A stretch of DNA of 64,000 nt from an uncultured Bacteroidales bacterium (GTDB lineage: Bacteria; Bacteroidota; Bacteroidia; Bacteroidales; Muribaculaceae), in the NCBI GenBank assembly GCA_949285735.1, contig CASEAQ010000002.1, forward strand, positions 57,975-121,974, read 5' to 3'. Positions within the stretch are counted from its first letter, which is position 1; every line of letters starts with the position of its first letter. The translations under genes and the position numbers were made by a program. Positions 10,284 to 52,113 of this stretch are shown piece after piece. The notes beneath the pieces are model-generated. The model was not told the origin of the DNA. It searched no databases and saw only the letters and a list, made by a program, of their open reading frames with translations.

Positions 10284-11348
10284 ATGGATGAGATAAATAT
10301 TCCAGATTACGTTATCGGTCAAGGGGCGACGGTGATTGATGCCCTGCACAAGCTCAACAGGCTGTCGGGGCGCACGATGACCCTCTTTGCAGTCGATGAC
10401 ATGGGGCGTGTAACGGGAACGCTCACCGACGGCGACGTGCGTCGTGCGCTCATCGAGGGTTGTTCGTTGCAGTCGCAGGTTGTCGAGGTGATGCACCGTG
10501 CGTTCACTGCATTCCGCGGTGAGCACCCCGACATTGCCGACATTCGCGACATACGCCGCCGCCAGATAGAGCTTGTGCCACACCTCAATGGCGACGGCAC
10601 GATACGCCGCATATATGATTTCTCGGTTTTCCATTCCATTTTGCCGATTGATGCCGTGTTGATGGCTGGAGGCAGGGGCGAACGGTTGCGGCCGTTGACG
10701 CTCGACACGCCCAAGCCGCTGTTGCCCGTGGGCGGACGTTGCATAATCGACTACAATATCGAGGCTCTTGCCCGCAACGGCATTGCCGACATAAGTGTTA
10801 CGGTCAACTACCTTGCTGAGAAAATCGAGCAGCATTTTGCCAACCCCGTGGCTGGGGTGCAGGTGAAGTGTGTGCGCGAGCCGCGGCGGCTTGGCACAAT
10901 AGGCTCGCTCACGCTGGTCGAACCAGGGAGCAACGACACCGTGCTGCTGATGAACTCCGACTTGCTGACCAACATAAATTATGAGGCGATGTACATGACG
11001 CATATCGACGAGTGTGCCGACATGACGGCGGCAGTGATTCCCTATGTGGTGTCGGTGCCGTATGCCATTTTCCGCACCGAAGGCAACGCCGTGCTTTCGC
11101 TTGAGGAGAAGCCTACTTATAACTACTATGCCAACGCCGGCATCTATATGATACGCCGTGAGTGCTTGGATATAATACCGCAAGACACCTATTACGATGC
11201 CACCGACTTCATCGAGGCGTTGATAGCCCGCGGGGGCAAGGTGAGGCAATATGTGATAGACGGCACATGGATCGACATCGGTTCGCCCGACGACTACCGT
11301 GCCGCCCAGGAGCTAATGCGCCGCCGTCCAGGCAATATGTCACTTTAA
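10284..11348 (+). CDS. CBS-domain nucleotidyltransferase (sugar-1-phosphate guanylyl/uridylyl-transferase-like)
   Basis: 354 residues. An N-terminal CBS pair (about 1-120, with FAVDDMGRVTGTLTDGDVRRA) is followed by an NTP_transferase domain with LMAGGRGERLRPLTLDTPKP at about residue 127, the nucleotide-binding signature. Such proteins activate sugar phosphates for surface polysaccharide or LPS. Position directly after porQ may be meaningful because T9SS cargo is anchored to a special LPS (A-LPS), but substrate cannot be read from sequence. Same operon as porQ and the phosphatase. Confidence 0.85.
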   Translation: MDEINIPDYVIGQGATVIDALHKLNRLSGRTMTLFAVDDMGRVTGTLTDGDVRRALIEGCSLQSQVVEVMHRAFTAFRGEHPDIADIRDIRRRQIELVPHLNGDGTIRRIYDFSVFHSILPIDAVLMAGGRGERLRPLTLDTPKPLLPVGGRCIIDYNIEALARNGIADISVTVNYLAEKIEQHFANPVAGVQVKCVREPRRLGTIGSLTLVEPGSNDTVLLMNSDLLTNINYEAMYMTHIDECADMTAAVIPYVVSVPYAIFRTEGNAVLSLEEKPTYNYYANAGIYMIRRECLDIIPQDTYYDATDFIEALIARGGKVRQYVIDGTWIDIGSPDDYRAAQELMRRRPGNMSL

Positions 11349-11365
11349 ATAAAACATAAAGAGTT

Positions 11366-12529
11366 ATGAAAAGAAGAATTGGCATGGCTGTGCTTGTGTT
11401 GCTGGTGGGGGCATTGCAGATGCTTGCCGGCATAAACATCTTGCATGGACCATATTTGCAGAATGTCGATGAGCATGAAGCTACTGTGGTGTGGGTAACC
11501 GACAATTCATCGGTCGGCTGGGTCGAGTTAGCACCCGATGATGGCAGCCACTTCTATGCACAAGAGCGCACAAAGCTGTTCGACACGAAGATAGGCATCA
11601 AGAACGTATCTCGCGTTCATGCCGTGAAACTTGTGGGATTGCAGCCCGGCACAAGCTACCGCTATAGAGTGTGTGCACAGGAAGTGCTGTCGCACGAGGG
11701 AGTAAAGGTGGTGTATGGCGAGATTGCCTCTACCGATGTATATAACAAGTCTCCGCTTGCGTTCAAGACCAGCGACAGCAAGAAGCCGACAGTGTCGTTT
11801 GCCATGATGAACGATATTCACGGACGCAACGATGTGCTTGAAAACATGGTGGGGCAGTGTGATTTGGGTGCAACCGACTTGATTCTGTTTAATGGCGACA
11901 TGGTGTCGATCTCCGATAGCGAGGAGCAGGTGTTCGGCGGTTTCATGGACAAGGCTGTTGAACTTTTTGCAGGCTCGGTGCCCATGTATTATTGCCGTGG
12001 CAACCATGAGACGCGTGGTGCAATGGCACCATATTTCAAAGACTACTTCAATCCTCATGCCGATGAATTGTATTATATGTTCAGGCAGGGACCTGTGTGC
12101 TTCGTCGTGCTCGATTGCGGAGAAGACAAGCCCGACAGCGATGTCGAGTATTATGGAATTACGGCTTATGACAGTTATCGCTCACAGCAAGCCGAATGGC
12201 TCAAAGAGGCGTTGCAAAGCGATTTGTACAAAAGTGCTCCGTTCAAAGTGATTGTGTGCCACATGCCTCCCTTCGGTGGCTGGCATGGGGAGAGCGACAT
12301 TGCCAAAAAGTTTGTTCCGCTCTTGAATGCGGCAAAGCCCGATGTCTATCTGTGTGGACACTTGCATAGCTATATCAGGAATGATGCAGGAAAGGAAGGG
12401 GTGGATTTTCCGTTGATAGTCAATTCCAATAATACACTTCTCAAAGCCGAAGCCGACAACAGCAGACTGACGATTTGCATATACGATCTCTCGGGAAAAG
12501 AGACCGACCGCTTGGAAATAGAGAAATAA
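11366..12529 (+). CDS. Secreted calcineurin-like metallophosphoesterase with purple-acid-phosphatase N-terminal domain
   Basis: 387 residues: signal peptide (about 1-22), a fibronectin-like domain with the purple acid phosphatase pattern (HGPYLQNVDEHEATVVWVT ... LQPGTSYRYRV), then a metallophosphoesterase domain with all dinuclear-metal motifs: NDIHGR, FNGDMV, RGNHETRG, VCHMPPFGG and CGHLHSY. Probably a periplasmic or surface phosphatase. It follows the nucleotidyltransferase by 17 bases and ends the porQ run; an inverted repeat array lies just downstream. Confidence 0.88.
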   Translation: MKRRIGMAVLVLLVGALQMLAGINILHGPYLQNVDEHEATVVWVTDNSSVGWVELAPDDGSHFYAQERTKLFDTKIGIKNVSRVHAVKLVGLQPGTSYRYRVCAQEVLSHEGVKVVYGEIASTDVYNKSPLAFKTSDSKKPTVSFAMMNDIHGRNDVLENMVGQCDLGATDLILFNGDMVSISDSEEQVFGGFMDKAVELFAGSVPMYYCRGNHETRGAMAPYFKDYFNPHADELYYMFRQGPVCFVVLDCGEDKPDSDVEYYGITAYDSYRSQQAEWLKEALQSDLYKSAPFKVIVCHMPPFGGWHGESDIAKKFVPLLNAAKPDVYLCGHLHSYIRNDAGKEGVDFPLIVNSNNTLLKAEADNSRLTICIYDLSGKETDRLEIEK

Positions 12530-43922: not shown

Positions 43923-45194
43923 ATGAAAACAATTGATGGACATGACGTGAAGATATTCACCGACAATATCGAGGTCGGTGCAGTGGAGCAAATAAGGCAA
44001 TTGCTTGCAATTGACGTGTTTGGCGGTTGCAAGATACGCATCATGCCCGACGTACATGCCGGGGCGGGCTGCGTGATAGGGTTCACGGGGAATCTTGGCG
44101 ACAAGGTGATTCCAAACATTGTGGGTGTTGACATAGGGTGTGGAATACAGGTGCAGCCGTTCAGGTTCGTGGGCGACATAGATTTCCATGCGCTTAATGA
44201 GTTTATCGTTGCCAATATACCGTCGGACAGGAATGTGCGCGAGGGCGATGTCATATTGCCGCAGCCATATATGGAACGGTATTCGCAGGCAAAGCAGTTG
44301 GTACAGGAGATGCGCTGCTTCCGTGAGTTTAAGGAAGTAAAGCGTCACTACAAGGCGATAGGGTCGCTTGGCGGCGGCAATCATTATATCGAAATCGATC
44401 ACGACGAGAATGGCGTGGGATATATTGCCGTCCACACTGGCAGCCGCAACATAGGCAAGCAAGTTGCCGATATTTACCAGAAATTGGCTGTAAAGATGCA
44501 GTCGGGGTGGGGCGAATTGATGCAAGAACAGAATGCCATGATAAAGGCATACAAGGAAGCCGGGCGCAAGAATGAGTTACAAGATGCCATACGGCAGTTG
44601 CACAATTCGTTCAAGATGCGTAAGCCGCCGATTCCTGCCGACTTGTGCTACTTGAGCGGAGAGGCGCGCGAAGACTATTTGCACGACATGCGCCTTTGCC
44701 AGCAATGGGCACGCATCAACCGCAGTGTGATTGTCGATTTGATAAGTGAGTTCCTATTGCGGCAAGAGTGGATGGAGATACCCGTTGGTGATGAGGCTTT
44801 TGCGCGATTTGAAAGTGTGCATAATTACATAGGCGATGATAATGTTATCCGCAAGGGTGCTATTTCGGCTCGTGCCGGAGAGCGTTGCATTATCCCGTTG
44901 AACATGCGCGATGGTGCGCTATTGTGTGTCGGCAAGGGCAACGAGGACTGGAACAACTCGGCTCCGCACGGGGCAGGGCGCATCATGAGCCGTGCCGAGG
45001 CGTTCAAGCGGATAGACATGGCAGCATTTCAGCAGTCGATGGCTGGAATTTATAGCGAAACTGTCAATGAGGACACCCGTGACGAGTCGCCGATGGTTTA
45101 CAAGTCCAAGGAGGAAATCATTGCCAATATCAAAGACACTGTGGAAATTGTCAAGGTGGTAAAGCCCGTGTTCAACTTCAAGGCTGCAATGTAA
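43923..45194 (+). CDS. rtcB: RtcB family RNA-splicing ligase
   Basis: 423 residues. RtcB joins 2',3'-cyclic phosphate and 5'-OH RNA ends with GTP and manganese. Metal and guanylylation motifs are present: MPDVHAGAGCVIG, NIVGVDIGCGIQ, LGGGNHYIEID, HTGSRNIG and NSAPHGAGRIMSR, with the guanylated histidine in APHGAG. No archease or RtcA gene is adjacent, and no dedicated regulator is seen. Confidence 0.93.
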   Translation: MKTIDGHDVKIFTDNIEVGAVEQIRQLLAIDVFGGCKIRIMPDVHAGAGCVIGFTGNLGDKVIPNIVGVDIGCGIQVQPFRFVGDIDFHALNEFIVANIPSDRNVREGDVILPQPYMERYSQAKQLVQEMRCFREFKEVKRHYKAIGSLGGGNHYIEIDHDENGVGYIAVHTGSRNIGKQVADIYQKLAVKMQSGWGELMQEQNAMIKAYKEAGRKNELQDAIRQLHNSFKMRKPPIPADLCYLSGEAREDYLHDMRLCQQWARINRSVIVDLISEFLLRQEWMEIPVGDEAFARFESVHNYIGDDNVIRKGAISARAGERCIIPLNMRDGALLCVGKGNEDWNNSAPHGAGRIMSRAEAFKRIDMAAFQQSMAGIYSETVNEDTRDESPMVYKSKEEIIANIKDTVEIVKVVKPVFNFKAAM

Positions 45195-46790: not shown

Positions 46791-46821
46791 TTTGTGAGGA
46801 GCGGAAAAATGTATATATTTG
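46791..46821 (+). promoter_or_regulatory. Bacteroidetes-type promoter driving the structured RNA / four-gene operon
   Basis: TTTG (46791-46794), 19 bases, TATATTTG (46814-46821), a full match. Transcription should begin near 46828, more than 400 bases before the first start codon. Confidence 0.65.
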
Positions 46822-46827
46822 CATATC

Positions 46828-47165
46828 ACCCACGCCGTGCCATTACACACTGGTGGATGGAGCGGAGGGTGGGCGTACATACATAATGAAAGGCGTTTAC
46901 TTGACGCTTTGGTTTTGACAGCTTAAGAATCTCGCAAATTCCCAATCGGTTGGTCAAAAACAAAGCAACGGTGAATGCTTCCGTGGGTGTATTATATCAG
47001 GCTCACGCCGTGGCTTGTTGCGAAACGGGCGCATGGCGGTGGGAGTGTATCATATATATACATCGGCGTGGGGCTTTCGCGTTGCTCGTTTCGACTAACC
47101 GGGCAATGCGAGAGCCTTTAAGCTGTGGAACGGGCAACAAGCATCGGCTCCACGTTCTTTTTTTT
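46828..47165 (+). ncRNA. Candidate structured non-coding RNA or long riboregulatory leader
   Basis: Between the promoter and the first gene lie about 340 nt without a credible frame but with nested complementarity. GCTTGTTGC (47013-47021) pairs exactly with GCAACAAGC (47134-47142), extended outward by GCCG (47007-47010) with CGGC (47145-47148). Inside, CGAAACGGGC pairs with GCTCGTTTCG and GTGTAT with ATACAT. A separate hairpin is at 46890-46911. The structure ends in CCACG-TTC followed by eight T's (47158-47165), like an intrinsic terminator. Either an independent RNA or an attenuating leader of the operon starting at 47244. No known RNA family was recognised. Confidence 0.5.
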
Positions 47166-47243
47166 GCGTGTGCGGTAAATGAAAGAATCAATACTATAAA
47201 CCACATTTCTTGCATGGCAGCCGGCAGGAAGACGTAATGAGAT

Positions 47244-48047
47244 ATGGTTGCCAGTGTAAGGTTGCCTAAATGGCTTGATGGGTATATATATGGCGAGTTG
47301 GGCGCAAAATATTGTCGCTCAAACGCTGACATGACAGTTATCGACTGGGATAAGGACGATGTGCTTAATTATTTGGGAACTTATTTCCCGCGAAGCTATA
47401 CCGAGGCTTATTGTATCTATCGACAGCTTTTTTCTGCGTGTCCGGGCGATTGGGGATCGAGGCGGAATATATCGGTTTTTGATTTCGGTTGCGGCACGGG
47501 CGGCGAGATTATAGGGCTATTGGCTGCGATTGATGAATGTCTGCATGGCATGGAGGAAGTGGACATATATGCGATGGACGGAAACCTGCATGCACTCCGC
47601 CTGTTTGAAAAAGTGGTTGATGCCTATTCGAGTCGTTCGGAGCTTAGGATAAAATATCACGTAATACCTGTTAAAATTGATGACATATACGACTTGACGA
47701 TTCTCGACGCTGTGGTGCAAAGTCGGTTTGATATCGTGATGTCGGTAAAGGCAATATGTGAATTCGTTACCAAGGAGCAGTTTGAGGAAACCAACGCCTA
47801 TGAGTGTGTGGCTCGGTATTTCTTGCCTAAATTGAACGACGACGGTGTTATGCTGCTCATTGATGTGACCACTTATAGCAATGTGTCGCAAGAGTGGTTG
47901 CCAAAGATGCTCGACAGGGGATTATCGGCTGTCGATTGCCACATTGTGCTGCGCAATGATGGATATAGCCAAGTGTTTACAGTCGCGCACTCGCATTGCG
48001 TGAGAGACATAAGCAAAGTAGCATGGAGAATAATAAACAATAGATAA
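47244..48047 (+). CDS. Class I SAM-dependent methyltransferase-like protein
   Basis: 267 residues. ISVFDFGCGTGGEIIGLL (about 76-93) is a Rossmann SAM-binding motif I; the acidic residue after strand 2 is in IYAMDGN (D112), and FDIVMSVKAICEF (about 160) sits where motif IV falls. No DNA-methyltransferase catalytic motif (NPPY, SPPY or PC) is visible, so DNA base methylation is unlikely; RNA, protein or small-molecule targets are open. First gene of a four-gene unit: 3 bases to the helicase, then two 4-base overlaps. Target unknown. Confidence 0.6.
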   Translation: MVASVRLPKWLDGYIYGELGAKYCRSNADMTVIDWDKDDVLNYLGTYFPRSYTEAYCIYRQLFSACPGDWGSRRNISVFDFGCGTGGEIIGLLAAIDECLHGMEEVDIYAMDGNLHALRLFEKVVDAYSSRSELRIKYHVIPVKIDDIYDLTILDAVVQSRFDIVMSVKAICEFVTKEQFEETNAYECVARYFLPKLNDDGVMLLIDVTTYSNVSQEWLPKMLDRGLSAVDCHIVLRNDGYSQVFTVAHSHCVRDISKVAWRIINNR

Positions 48048-48050
48048 GCT

Positions 48051-49115
48051 ATGAAAAAGGATTGGATGATAAAGGAGTCGGAGCTTGATGACGACCAAAT
48101 CAAAATCTTAACGGCTGTGCTTGACAAGTCGTGTGTAGTAGCTGGGTGTGCCGGAAGCGGCAAGTCGGTGCTTGCATTGATAAAAGCACAGCGCATTCAG
48201 AAAGAGAGAGGTGATAATTACAAGATTATTGTTTTTACCAAGGCTTTGTGCGGATATATGAATTCGGGTCGCGAAGAACTTGGGTTGCATAATCAATTTT
48301 TGTATCATTGGCATTGGAAGCATCGGCTTGATTGTAGTCACGCTGATTACTTGATTGTGGACGAGATACAAGATTTCGAGGAAGAAGAGATAAAAGAGTT
48401 CATTAATGCGACAAACAAGCATTTCTTTTTCTTTGGAGATACAGCTCAGTCGATTTATGATGGGTTGAAAAATACTGTGTCTGTGGAGGCTATAGGTTAT
48501 ATTATGCTGAGAATGGAAAAACCTAAATATTTTGAATTGTACAGGAATTATCGCTTGCCGGTCGGGGTTGCAAAGTTGGCTCAATATGTTGGGGTTGATT
48601 TATCTCCATTTGAGGAGAGTACTTATAAAAGTACGTCACAAGCGGTGCCTCGAATATTGCGGTACGACAATCAGAAAGCACAGATTTTAGCGATAGGTAA
48701 AATTTTGGCGCGAAATTCCGCCATGACCGATTGTGCAATTCTTGTACCGCACAATGAAATGGTAAAGACTGTGGGAGCATTACTTGATGAATTAGGGGTG
48801 AACTATGAAATGCAATATAAAGACAAGGAAGATTTTCGCAAGAGTCGGTTTACATTGAATTTCTCGTCGTCAAATCCTAAAGTAATGACCTACCACAGCG
48901 CAAAAGGATTGCAATTTGAGACAGTGTTTCTTCCATTCATTGAAGACATCAACACATTTGGCACATCGAACAGAAAATCGTTATATGTGGCAATGACACG
49001 GACTTATAAAAATCTGTATATCATGTATAGTGGATATTTGCCTGAATTGTTGTCGAATATTCCGAGAGATTTGTATAAAACAACTGAAACAGATTTAGAA
49101 TTTGAAGAAATATGA
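48051..49115 (+). CDS. Short UvrD-like SF1 helicase/ATPase
   Basis: 354 residues. Motifs in order: Q-like LDDDQIKIL, Walker A AGCAGSGKSV (about 31-40), DEIQD (104-108), FGDTAQSIYDG (motif III), MTYHSAKGLQFETVFLP (motif V) and VAMTRTYKNLYI (motif VI). The full ATPase set is present, but the protein is about half the length of UvrD or Rep, so the inserted 1B/2B domains must be small or absent. Likely a nucleic-acid-stimulated motor or switch in this system. Stop overlaps the next start (ATGA). Confidence 0.82.
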   Translation: MKKDWMIKESELDDDQIKILTAVLDKSCVVAGCAGSGKSVLALIKAQRIQKERGDNYKIIVFTKALCGYMNSGREELGLHNQFLYHWHWKHRLDCSHADYLIVDEIQDFEEEEIKEFINATNKHFFFFGDTAQSIYDGLKNTVSVEAIGYIMLRMEKPKYFELYRNYRLPVGVAKLAQYVGVDLSPFEESTYKSTSQAVPRILRYDNQKAQILAIGKILARNSAMTDCAILVPHNEMVKTVGALLDELGVNYEMQYKDKEDFRKSRFTLNFSSSNPKVMTYHSAKGLQFETVFLPFIEDINTFGTSNRKSLYVAMTRTYKNLYIMYSGYLPELLSNIPRDLYKTTETDLEFEEI

Positions 49116-51037
49116 AAACATATTACATACCTACATCTACTCTTAATTTCAATAATATATTGTCGAGCGAAAGTATCTCGCCACAGGCTTTTTATGCCAA
49201 GCGAGGATTTGGATATTCGCGGTGGCAGTCGGTGGAGGAGAATGGTGTTGACAATGCCATTATTCTTTATGACAAGCCATTTGAGTTTGTGCGTCCACAA
49301 AGCGATGTTGAAGACCATCCGATGCTTGTCAAGATTGTTACTGATGAAGAGTTGCCGAAGTTGGCTGAGGGAATTTATTACTGTGACCACACTATTTATC
49401 TTTCACCGTGGTGGGCTAAGTTTATCTTTTTCTCCGAGCGAGACAAGCGGACTGCGTTATCGTTGTCGGACAGCAGCCTTGAAACTAAATTCATGATTTT
49501 TTATAAGCGATGTTTCGATGTGCGGCAAGGTTTGGGGCAATGGAATGGTAAGAAATGTAATTTCAATAAGGTAAATATTGAATTGAATGAGGCGGCAATA
49601 AAACGTGACCGCCAAATCAATAAGATGAAAGGACTGCTATATGGCTACTATATTGGTGCAATGCTTTCGACTTCACCCGAAAATGTTGCAACGTATGGCA
49701 TTTTGCAAGAATTGCAGAATATTTTTTCTGCCGTAATAGCTTCTGACTATAAAGCGACTCCACTCCAAGAGGAAAGAATGAACTACTTGCTGTCGAGAAT
49801 GCAAGAGCAAGAGCCCGTTATCAAGTATCTGAAAGAAATAGTGAAAGATGGGGTTGATATTGACAGTTCTATAAGCGGTTTAATTGCTCGTGGGGTAAGT
49901 TTCCCGTTTAAATACAAAAGTGAAATTATTCGCAGCTTGTTGTATGGAGGAGAGGAGCACAACGAGGCTATTTCTTGGCTGACGAGAAAAATAGAGCAGT
50001 TGAACAAGAAGATACAAAGTGAGACTACACTTTTAAGGATTGAAAATAAGGATGTTGTCGTAAAAGACTTGATGCTAAGCAAAATTTCAAATGCGGTAAT
50101 TGTCGAGGAAATGGAGCGAAGTGTGGTTTTGGCTTGGGTGAATGATGTGTTCTGCAAAGATGAATACAATGGGAGCATTGAGAATGTCAAAGCGCAACTC
50201 TCAGACGAAGTGACACGAAAAGCGAAAGAGGTGTATGAAAACAGGTGGGAAACCTGCGAGATGAAAACGCAATTGAATGAGATGCGCAAATATGTTGGTG
50301 GAGCTGATTCGTCGCTGCGGTGGGGTGATAATTTGCCGTCTGTTATTGCCGCAGTGCTTTCAAGCGGTGATGATTGGGAGCGGCTGTTGAGGCAAATGCG
50401 CTTGAAGTCGATGTGTAATTATAGCTTGGCATTTGCCATTTATGGTGGACTGGTAGGATTTGCCAATTTGACACGAGATTTCACCGATATACTGTTTGGA
50501 TACAAAGACAAGCAATATGTAACTAATGTTTATGTAGAATTGTTCGAGCAATTGATGGGCTATTCTCCTGTTGTAGAAGAATTTAGTGAAAATCAAGAGA
50601 TTGTTTCGAAAGATAATAAAATGCATGATGCGGAGAAGAATAACACTGCTTCGAGAGAGTCGCGCAATTTGTTGTGGAAAAGTAAGCAGAATAAACAAAA
50701 TCTTCAAGGCGAATTGAAATTTGCACCTGAAGAGTCGATACAGTTTAGTTTTCAATATATTGATGCAATAATGCAGCTAATCGTAGAGTATCATGGTAAA
50801 TTAAGAAAACTAAATGCTTTGCAACAGAAAAGTATTAAACGTGCTTTAAACTGGGTTCTAAATGAAAAATACGCAAAGGCGGATGTTAAAGGGAGGTTGT
50901 CTGATTTCTGGAAAGAATTGTATAGAAATAAGACAGAGCCGATGAAAGAAGAGAACCAATCTTGGATGATGGATCTTTATCAGAATGTTGATATTGATGG
51001 GATAATTAAATGTTTAGAAGCTAAATTTGTGAAATGA
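49112..51037 (+). CDS. Large protein of unknown family, third gene of the four-gene operon
   Basis: 641 residues; no family recognised. No signal peptide or membrane segment. The N-terminal 150 residues (opening MKTYYIPTSTLNFNNILSSE) look globular with many aromatics (IYLSPWWAKFIFFSE). The middle (about 170-400) is Lys/Glu-rich and probably helical, with coiled-coil-like stretches (WLTRKIEQLNKKIQSETTLL). The last 100 residues carry QYIDAIMQLIVEYHGKL and end in a helical tail. Base composition is visibly more AT-rich than flanking housekeeping genes. Overlap by 4 bases with both neighbours implies translation in fixed proportion to the helicase and the DUF1848 protein. Confidence 0.75.
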   Translation: MKTYYIPTSTLNFNNILSSESISPQAFYAKRGFGYSRWQSVEENGVDNAIILYDKPFEFVRPQSDVEDHPMLVKIVTDEELPKLAEGIYYCDHTIYLSPWWAKFIFFSERDKRTALSLSDSSLETKFMIFYKRCFDVRQGLGQWNGKKCNFNKVNIELNEAAIKRDRQINKMKGLLYGYYIGAMLSTSPENVATYGILQELQNIFSAVIASDYKATPLQEERMNYLLSRMQEQEPVIKYLKEIVKDGVDIDSSISGLIARGVSFPFKYKSEIIRSLLYGGEEHNEAISWLTRKIEQLNKKIQSETTLLRIENKDVVVKDLMLSKISNAVIVEEMERSVVLAWVNDVFCKDEYNGSIENVKAQLSDEVTRKAKEVYENRWETCEMKTQLNEMRKYVGGADSSLRWGDNLPSVIAAVLSSGDDWERLLRQMRLKSMCNYSLAFAIYGGLVGFANLTRDFTDILFGYKDKQYVTNVYVELFEQLMGYSPVVEEFSENQEIVSKDNKMHDAEKNNTASRESRNLLWKSKQNKQNLQGELKFAPEESIQFSFQYIDAIMQLIVEYHGKLRKLNALQQKSIKRALNWVLNEKYAKADVKGRLSDFWKELYRNKTEPMKEENQSWMMDLYQNVDIDGIIKCLEAKFVK

Positions 51038-52113
51038 AAGAAACTGCAAAAAATAAAGATAAGGTCGTAATCACGACTGATGCCGGGGAGCGTGTCGAGG
51101 CGACGGCTCCAGTGATAATTTCGGCAAGCAGGTCAACCGACATTCCGGCATTTTATGCCCGATGGTTTTTCAATCGGTTGGCACGAGGGTATTGTGCATG
51201 GTACAATCCGTTTAACCGACAAAAGATGTATGTGTCGTTTGAGCGGTGCAAAGTGGTTGTGTTCTGGACAAAGAACCCACGACCGATATTGCCGTTATTG
51301 CCCGAACTCGACAAGAGGGGGATTCATTACTATTTTCAAGTAACCCTTAACGACTATGTTGCAGAGGGCTTTGAGCCAAATGTTCCAAGCGTAGAGCAGA
51401 GGGTGGAAACATTCAAGCAATTGTCGGACATGATAGGGCGCGAACGCGTGATATGGCGGTTCGACCCTCTAATTGTGACCCCGAACATCACTCCGCGCAC
51501 GTTGCTTAGCCGAATATGGCGGGTTGGCAACTTGCTGAAGGGTTATACCGACAAGTTGGTGTTCAGCTTCGTCGATGTGAAGACTTATCGCAAGGTGCAG
51601 AATAACCTTGTGAAGGAAACCAGTTGTTTCACGAAAGAGAATGTTGACACCGCCGAGATGAGCGACTGGCAGCGCACCGAACTCGTGGAGGGGCTGGTGA
51701 AGCTGAGGGAGATATGGGCAGCGGAAGGGTGGAACTTGACCCTTGCCACGTGTGCCGAGGGTATCGACCTTGATGAATATGGAATCGAGCATAATCGTTG
51801 CATCGACGGAGAACTGATGGAACGGGTGTTTGGCGATGACAAGGAATTGGTGTATTATTTGCGCACGGGGAAATTGCCTGAGCTGCCGCGGCAAGGGGCG
51901 ATGTTCGAGCCTGCCATTGAGATACCCGACAAGCAGGCTAATTTGAAGGATAAAGGGCAGCGCAAGGTGTGTGGCTGCATGATTAGCAAGGATATAGGAA
52001 TGTATGACACGTGCCGCCACTTTTGCGTGTATTGCTATGCCAATACGAGCCGCGACTGTGTCAAGAGGAATGCTGCACGGCATAGCGACGATAGCGAGAG
52101 CCTGATTGACTAA
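51034..52113 (+). CDS. DUF1848 family iron-sulfur protein
   Basis: 359 residues. The opening ISASRSTDIPAFYARWFFNRL and KVVVFWTKNPRPILPLL are the hallmark of DUF1848. The C-terminal cluster CGCMISKDIGMYDTC then RHFCVYCYAN has five or more cysteines in the family pattern and should bind an Fe-S cluster, reminiscent of radical-SAM/photoproduct-lyase-like enzymes. WRFDPLIVTP is a further conserved segment. DUF1848 proteins can occur alone, so its fixed coupling to a helicase and a methyltransferase here is informative. Reaction unknown. Confidence 0.8.
   Translation: MKETAKNKDKVVITTDAGERVEATAPVIISASRSTDIPAFYARWFFNRLARGYCAWYNPFNRQKMYVSFERCKVVVFWTKNPRPILPLLPELDKRGIHYYFQVTLNDYVAEGFEPNVPSVEQRVETFKQLSDMIGRERVIWRFDPLIVTPNITPRTLLSRIWRVGNLLKGYTDKLVFSFVDVKTYRKVQNNLVKETSCFTKENVDTAEMSDWQRTELVEGLVKLREIWAAEGWNLTLATCAEGIDLDEYGIEHNRCIDGELMERVFGDDKELVYYLRTGKLPELPRQGAMFEPAIEIPDKQANLKDKGQRKVCGCMISKDIGMYDTCRHFCVYCYANTSRDCVKRNAARHSDDSESLID

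Follow-up and report, generated by a model that had tools for sequence, protein, structure and literature searches.

A recurring four-gene module of Bacteroidales places a minimal SF1 helicase gene beside a gene for a protein with predicted ADP-ribosylation folds

Introduction

The described systems closest to the operon reported here are DarTG, the ADP-ribosylhydrolases (ARH) of the ARH/DraG type (ARH3), Gabija and other UvrD-helicase systems, the defence reverse transcriptases (DRT) and restriction-modification. GajA of Gabija is an ATPase-TOPRIM protein. Leaders shared between operons are also known, among them JUMPstart/ops, EAR and other attenuators. The operon, composed of four genes termed A, B, C and D with a structured non-coding stretch directly upstream, occupies positions 46791-52113 of a 64,000-nucleotide stretch of DNA (the window) from an uncultured Bacteroidales bacterium of the Muribaculaceae (contig CASEAQ010000002.1). 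We show that the four genes are a genuine recurring unit, found at differing sites, and compare their products and their leader with the systems named above. A literature search, with most subscription papers and preprints outside its reach, returned nothing that we recognised as the four-gene set or the leader.

Results

Recurrence of the four genes

The genes are arranged as follows.

47244-48047, + strand: gene A, 267 aa, S-adenosylmethionine (SAM)-methyltransferase-like (sub-cut-off Pfam matches and motif conservation)
48051-49115, + strand: gene B, 354 aa, minimal superfamily 1 (SF1)/UvrD-like helicase (Pfam and motif conservation)
49112-51037, + strand: gene C, 641 aa, two-domain protein, ADP-ribosyltransferase (ART)-like plus ARH-like (predicted folds and profile comparison)
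51034-52113, + strand: gene D, 359 aa, DUF1848, putative radical-SAM-type Fe-S protein (Pfam and PADLOC)

The spacings are +3 bases between A and B and -4 bases both between B and C and between C and D, exactly as a first-pass annotation of the window had read them. As its decisive check, that annotation had asked whether the four genes recur together at different loci, and the outcome was positive from both C and B as queries. Protein searches with C covered genomes of the family (297), the order (393) and the phylum (395), sets that overlap and that include the genome of the window, and relatives were found in 7/297, 7/393 and 4/395 genomes, respectively. Among the 16 loci obtained in this way, which were read and profile-scored, B adjoins C in every case, while A and D, remnants counted, are present in 10. 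All four genes are also present on a phage-labelled faecal scaffold, MT835661.1 (locus L108, 8516-25247), bringing the C queries to 17 loci with B at 17, A at 11 and D at 11. The module on this scaffold adjoins a protein with Schlafen AlbA_2 and Fic-like C-terminal domains. It was the only scaffold with a C relative found by sequence in phages, and sequence searches of named genomes, viral contigs and plasmids with C found none.

The B query in named genomes yielded 12 loci, with A, B and C present in 12/12 and D in 11/12. The record titles name Prevotella, Parabacteroides, Porphyromonas, Prevotellaceae, Bacteroidaceae and Paludibacteraceae, with one given only as 'bacterium'; the titled taxa we take to belong to the Bacteroidales. 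At L103, the sole one of these loci without D, a stop interrupts C and the contig ends 156 bases beyond. No B relatives were found in viral contigs, and plasmids gave two distant matches. With L097 (B query) and L024 (C query) counted once as the same contig, there are 28 distinct loci; B is adjacent to C in all 28, A is present in 22 (one a remnant) and D in 21, remnants counted. Six loci carry B and C without A and D (L014, L025, L029, L030, L034 and L035), which argues that B–C is the core and that A and D are accessories of the larger branch. L034 and L035 come from genomes of the same class but a different order.

Several copies are rearranged or damaged. The gene order in L028 is A-D-B-C. 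In L012 B is split, C is shortened beside a transposase-like open frame (identified by eye) and D is altered, and in L027 A is a remnant and D lies in two frames. In L101 a second, diverged helicase-like gene (10592-11626) sits between C and D.

The helicase B and its partner C

B had been described as short yet in possession of all helicase motifs, and this description holds: Pfam gives Viral_helicase1 (4e-15) and UvrD_C (8.6e-11), and the motifs, which we take to be those of SF1 under their usual names, are kept in 15/15 aligned homologues. Among PADLOC models B scores best against GajB and the NERD+UvrD models, the point of likeness to Gabija and other UvrD-helicase systems; Pfam and PADLOC found no GajA-type family in A, C or D, and the partner of B here is C.

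C showed no significant family in Pfam, PADLOC or NCBIfam. The earlier view that it belongs to no recognised family is thus correct for sequence searches and gives way at the level of predicted structure, where two folds are recognisable.

49112-49540, + strand: C residues 1-143, DarT-like ADP-ribosyltransferase fold (predicted structure alone)
49601-50563, + strand: C residues 164-484, ARH/DraG ADP-ribosylhydrolase fold, metal site degenerate (two models and a profile match)

The N-terminal domain of the AlphaFold model of C resembles the DarT ADP-ribosyltransferase by structure only; a comparison of C with the DarT sequence profile was not separated from chance. VIA-align of a second C model gave no DarT rows, its list being filled with helical bundles and ARH rows, and is hence uninformative on DarT. 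The middle domain takes the ARH/DraG fold in both models and is matched to it by profile. Sequence searches of the PDB with C and D found nothing convincing, the C profile aligning with an ARH-type immunity protein over 33 positions at E 1.5. The modelled C of the branch with B and C only carries a long helical insertion.

The ARH metal-binding motifs, which we take to be GD and a GDxDT-type motif and which are also seen in L063, are degenerate in C. The first metal-binding Asp, that of the GD motif, is missing in 25/25 C sequences, and the second motif is not intact, with a nearby Asp in 16/25 and an Asn in the window, so the metal-binding aspartates of an active ARH hydrolase were not found. 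The candidate transferase glutamate, E124, is kept in 19/25 sequences, and the invariant positions include E20, R31 and K126. Given the missing ARH Asp and the incompletely kept Glu, C may bind rather than make ADP-ribose.

C differs from ARH/DraG proteins (ARH3) both in its degenerate metal motifs and in the position of its ARH-like domain behind an ART-like domain. Any likeness to DarTG would lie in the DarT-like fold predicted for its N-terminal domain; the operon differs from DarTG in encoding a helicase, a methyltransferase-like protein and a DUF1848 protein, and the candidate catalytic glutamate of C is not strictly kept. No Macro domain was matched in A, B, C or D by Pfam up to E 1.

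The accessory proteins A and D

A is weakly methyltransferase-like in Pfam, where every match lies below cut-off and none of the models listed is a DNA methylase. The motif DFGCGTGGE retains C83, G84, T85, G86, G87 and E88 in 7/7 sequences, so that the SAM-binding motif is kept. In two loci a NERD nuclease-related domain precedes A within one fused protein (L011, 4602-6611; L013, 10502-12463), and this domain matches the PADLOC candidate PDC-M16A at E 1.1e-35 and 6.1e-32, respectively. The fused homologue of L011 has weak DNA-methylase matches (N6_Mtase, 0.0057; PADLOC MTase_II, 1e-4). In line with the claim that A lacks DNA-base catalytic motifs, A itself has no DNA-methylase model, and its L011 homologue has the weak matches just given; the comparison with restriction-modification rests at the same point, with the NERD domain of L011 and L013 as a further feature.

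D had been called a DUF1848 protein that brings an Fe-S cluster, and both parts stand, the cluster as a putative one: the Pfam match has E 1.2e-92, and a C-terminal CX3CX2C is conserved in 9/9 homologues.

51970-52035, + strand: D cysteine cluster C313, C315, C327, C331 and C334 (invariant in 9/9 homologues)

Judged by its sequence, the CX3CX2C looks like a radical-SAM cluster and is putatively assigned as such. Residues 318-340 give a weak NCBIfam radical SAM match (E 6e-4, below the model cut-off), and the Pfam family note on DUF1848 presumably refers to a radical-SAM-like cluster as well. A literature search on DUF1848 found no papers.

Two accessory proteins also recall the DRT systems. 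D matches PADLOC RTasDUF1848 (E 2.4e-40); for A there is a weak match to the N-terminal part of PADLOC RT_UG35 (E 1.5e-5 in the window, 7.8e-9 in L011), which suggests that a defence reverse transcriptase (UG35) carries a methyltransferase-like domain related to A; PADLOC also has a model RTasHel. Pfam found no RVT_1 hit in A to D, leaving four genes without a reverse transcriptase. The matches of A and D to DRT accessory models led us to consider C as a hidden reverse transcriptase; this was rejected, C having no RVT hit in Pfam and a predicted ART/ARH fold.

Genomic neighbourhood

Defence genes lie near many copies of the module. A type I restriction-modification set (HsdR, S and M) stands beside L028, and a retron-type reverse transcriptase adjoins L025 (10305-11615), with a second one about 4.4 kb away from L106 (323-1765). 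These two reverse transcriptases resemble each other, and the two modules belong to different branches. L014 is flanked by an AbiP2-type reverse transcriptase and a DprA-like gene, L034 neighbours PglX/IIG, L035 a GajB-like helicase and an E1-like protein, and L027 a Mokosh-like helicase with a PIN domain and a PD-Lambda-3-like protein. Relaxases are found near L011, L096 and L098. A PADLOC scan of neighbours (version from 2023; cut-offs of 0.1, 1e-3 and 1e-10) gave matches of E 5e-32 or better at 9 of the 16 loci scanned, with neighbours picked by hand and no random-locus control: L014, L025, L027, L034, L035, L104, L105, L106 and L107, of which L104, L105 and L107 matched candidate models only. 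The same scan of hand-picked neighbours found none at L029, L096, L098, L099, L101, L102 and L108. Of the enrichment near other defence genes expected at first pass, these data show the proximity. From this context the module is probably both defence-associated and mobile.

The scanned neighbours of the operon in the window itself are not defence genes by Pfam. An RtcB-family RNA ligase gene (43923-45194) lies upstream of an acyltransferase gene in the window, with no sign of operon membership.

The leader RNA

The DNA upstream of A contains the following elements.

46791-46821, + strand: promoter-like element, TTTG at 46791-46794, 19 nt, then TATATTTG at 46814-46821 (sequence)
46822-47165, + strand: structured leader RNA with a conserved core from about 46888; transcript start presumed (fold z and covariation)
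47125-47165, + strand: terminator-like hairpin at 47125-47153 and U-run at 47158-47165, forming the leader end (fold, and T-rich ends in the copies)

The promoter-like element, the structured non-coding stretch of about 340 nt and the U-tract noted at first pass were all recovered. The promoter-like element, which we take to be of Bacteroidota type, lies about 420 nt from the ATG of A, and the structured part ends about 340 nt past the presumed start. The Bacteroidota-type -7 element, TAnnTTTG, is found upstream in 27/27 leader copies tested (2.9 expected from base shuffles), and the full -33/-7 pattern in 10/27 (0.14 expected). The predicted fold has an energy of -165.9 kcal/mol against -128.7 +/- 5.9 for shuffled sequences (z -6.4), with 0/100 shuffles as good. 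RNAalifold on 19 aligned copies gave 44 pairs, 19 of them with compensated changes, and 96.3% of cells paired; the covariation score was 0.375 against 0.157 +/- 0.010 for shuffles (0/500 as high), and cells changed on both sides numbered 102 against 30.3 +/- 4.4 when shuffled and 5-20 when slid. By hand count the pairs include 55 G-U against 13 A-C cells, or 36 against 13 without a single invariant U-G pair, as expected if the + strand is the RNA.

The terminator-like hairpin alone is weak in the window (-11 kcal/mol, z -1.1). At the end of the leader model, after this hairpin, at least 5 T in 10 bases occur in 25/26 copies, the exception being a truncated match (L029). The 5' strand of the hairpin, GUGGA, has a second partner in the long structure of the leader, and this dual pairing suggests an attenuator-type switch.

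The leader was found in 156/297 family genomes (BLAST, E up to 1e-5; about two candidates scored per genome). We read 20 of the better-scoring copies outside the system with their downstream genes (L076-L095, from 17 genomes; some operons are alike, so not all are independent). In 20/20 the leader and the next open frame share a strand; the frame begins 41-97 nt past the leader in 16 and overlaps the leader end in L085 and L093, with 310-320 nt to the first clear frame in L076 and L081. The first or early genes encode N6-methylase-type restriction proteins at five loci, two with an HSDR_N domain, and Ser/Thr kinase, VWA, PP2C or FHA proteins at five loci, some assigned by eye. Others comprise an FtsK-type locus (L091), unknown genes, and operons judged by eye to be lipoprotein-like or glycosyltransferase-like.

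Of the 22 A-bearing loci in the system, we detected the leader ahead of A in 7 (the window, L009, L024, L011, L013, L102 and L106), using a 90-position sequence model by which diverged copies could be missed; L012 has no upstream DNA and A of L027 is only a remnant. The truncated match of L029 lies farther upstream of B, and no leader was detected at the phage scaffold L108. One IMG/VR viral contig (L109, 10088-10123) bears the leader core motif. The idea that the RNA is a dedicated part of the four-gene system was therefore rejected as the main view, since the same RNA precedes unrelated operons and is not private to this one.

Rfam at gathering score gave no leader match, only a tRNA elsewhere in the window; the best sub-threshold leader matches had E values of 0.1 to 5, far below the gathering score. 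The leader resembles JUMPstart/ops and EAR-like leaders in that one conserved leader stands before many unrelated accessory operons, but differs in its length of about 340 nt, its Bacteroidota-type promoter, its long covarying hairpin and its lack of an Rfam family. It seems to be a cis element that accessory operons share, and its family has no Rfam entry. Excerpts of one report describe FopS, paralogous small RNAs of Bacteroides with a single-stranded 5' part and a terminator, as deposited in Rfam (PMC11697453). FopS is likewise a multicopy RNA family in Bacteroidota; identity with the leader was rejected, the leader forming a long hairpin, lacking an Rfam match and preceding operons.

Discussion

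The best overall explanation, to which we assign a probability of roughly 0.55, is that the operon is a mobile, probably anti-phage module in which the SF1 helicase B works with the ADP-ribosylation-fold protein C under a presumed attenuator leader. In this model B would travel along invading or damaged nucleic acid and pass a signal or a strand to C, which would then bind NAD+ or ADP-ribose and could ADP-ribosylate nucleic acid or protein in the manner of DarT. Should catalysis by C have been lost, C could instead be a scaffold that senses ADP-ribose and sets off shutdown. A, by methyl transfer, and D, by radical-SAM-type chemistry, may serve to mark or repair targets in the host, or to modulate the response. 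The leader would act in cis, its long hairpin and its terminator-like hairpin competing for the GUGGA strand, and expression of the operon could be switched at transcription through it.

It is unlikely, on balance, that the operon serves nucleic-acid or RNA repair outside defence, with B unwinding, C reading or removing ADP-ribose adducts, D repairing lesions by radical chemistry and A methylating. All four folds are compatible with nucleic-acid processing, D has its radical-SAM-like cysteine cluster, and excerpts of one report describe ARH-type enzymes that can strip ADP-ribose from RNA phosphate ends (PMC11833690). However, the first ARH metal ligand is absent in C, and the patchy spread (7/297 family genomes), the relaxases at three loci and the many defence neighbours fit an accessory conflict module better.

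Less probable again is that mobile elements carry the operon as a toxin-antitoxin-like or addiction module, in which the ART-like domain of C would be the toxin and the ARH-like domain its built-in restraint. ART and ARH are known to pair as toxin and antidote, an ART-ARH toxin-immunity pair (8za7) is among the PDB rows, and the same relaxases would suit a mobile element; yet the candidate glutamate of C is not strictly kept, its ARH site is degenerate, and four genes including a helicase exceed what addiction needs. A trans-acting role for the RNA, as guide or cofactor rather than leader, we consider highly improbable: the RNA does lie directly upstream of A where detected at A-bearing loci, and a single copy was found in the genome of the window (scoring covered 150 of 1178 first-look candidates, in a genome about 80% complete), but it went undetected at 15/22 A-bearing loci, and every copy read elsewhere precedes a same-strand open frame, mostly at short distance.

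Returning to the anti-phage module, a wider reading can be put forward as a tentative possibility. The leader might be the shared switch of a Bacteroidales conflict regulon, releasing its operons together on infection or stress, and the module a new type of defence, its helicase driving a degenerate pair of transferase and hydrolase that serves as an NAD+/ADP-ribose sensor. Such a regulon would cover the promoter-leader-terminator cassette found before restriction enzymes, kinase/phosphatase operons, a secretion-type locus and the helicase module.

The analysis defines a recurring four-gene module in Bacteroidales and gives a featureless protein family, that of C, a testable identity. It also brings to light a structured leader, with no Rfam family, that stands before several conflict-type operons. 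Were this leader a switch, it would offer a direct route to how Bacteroidota time the expression of costly defence genes, a question largely open in the phylum.

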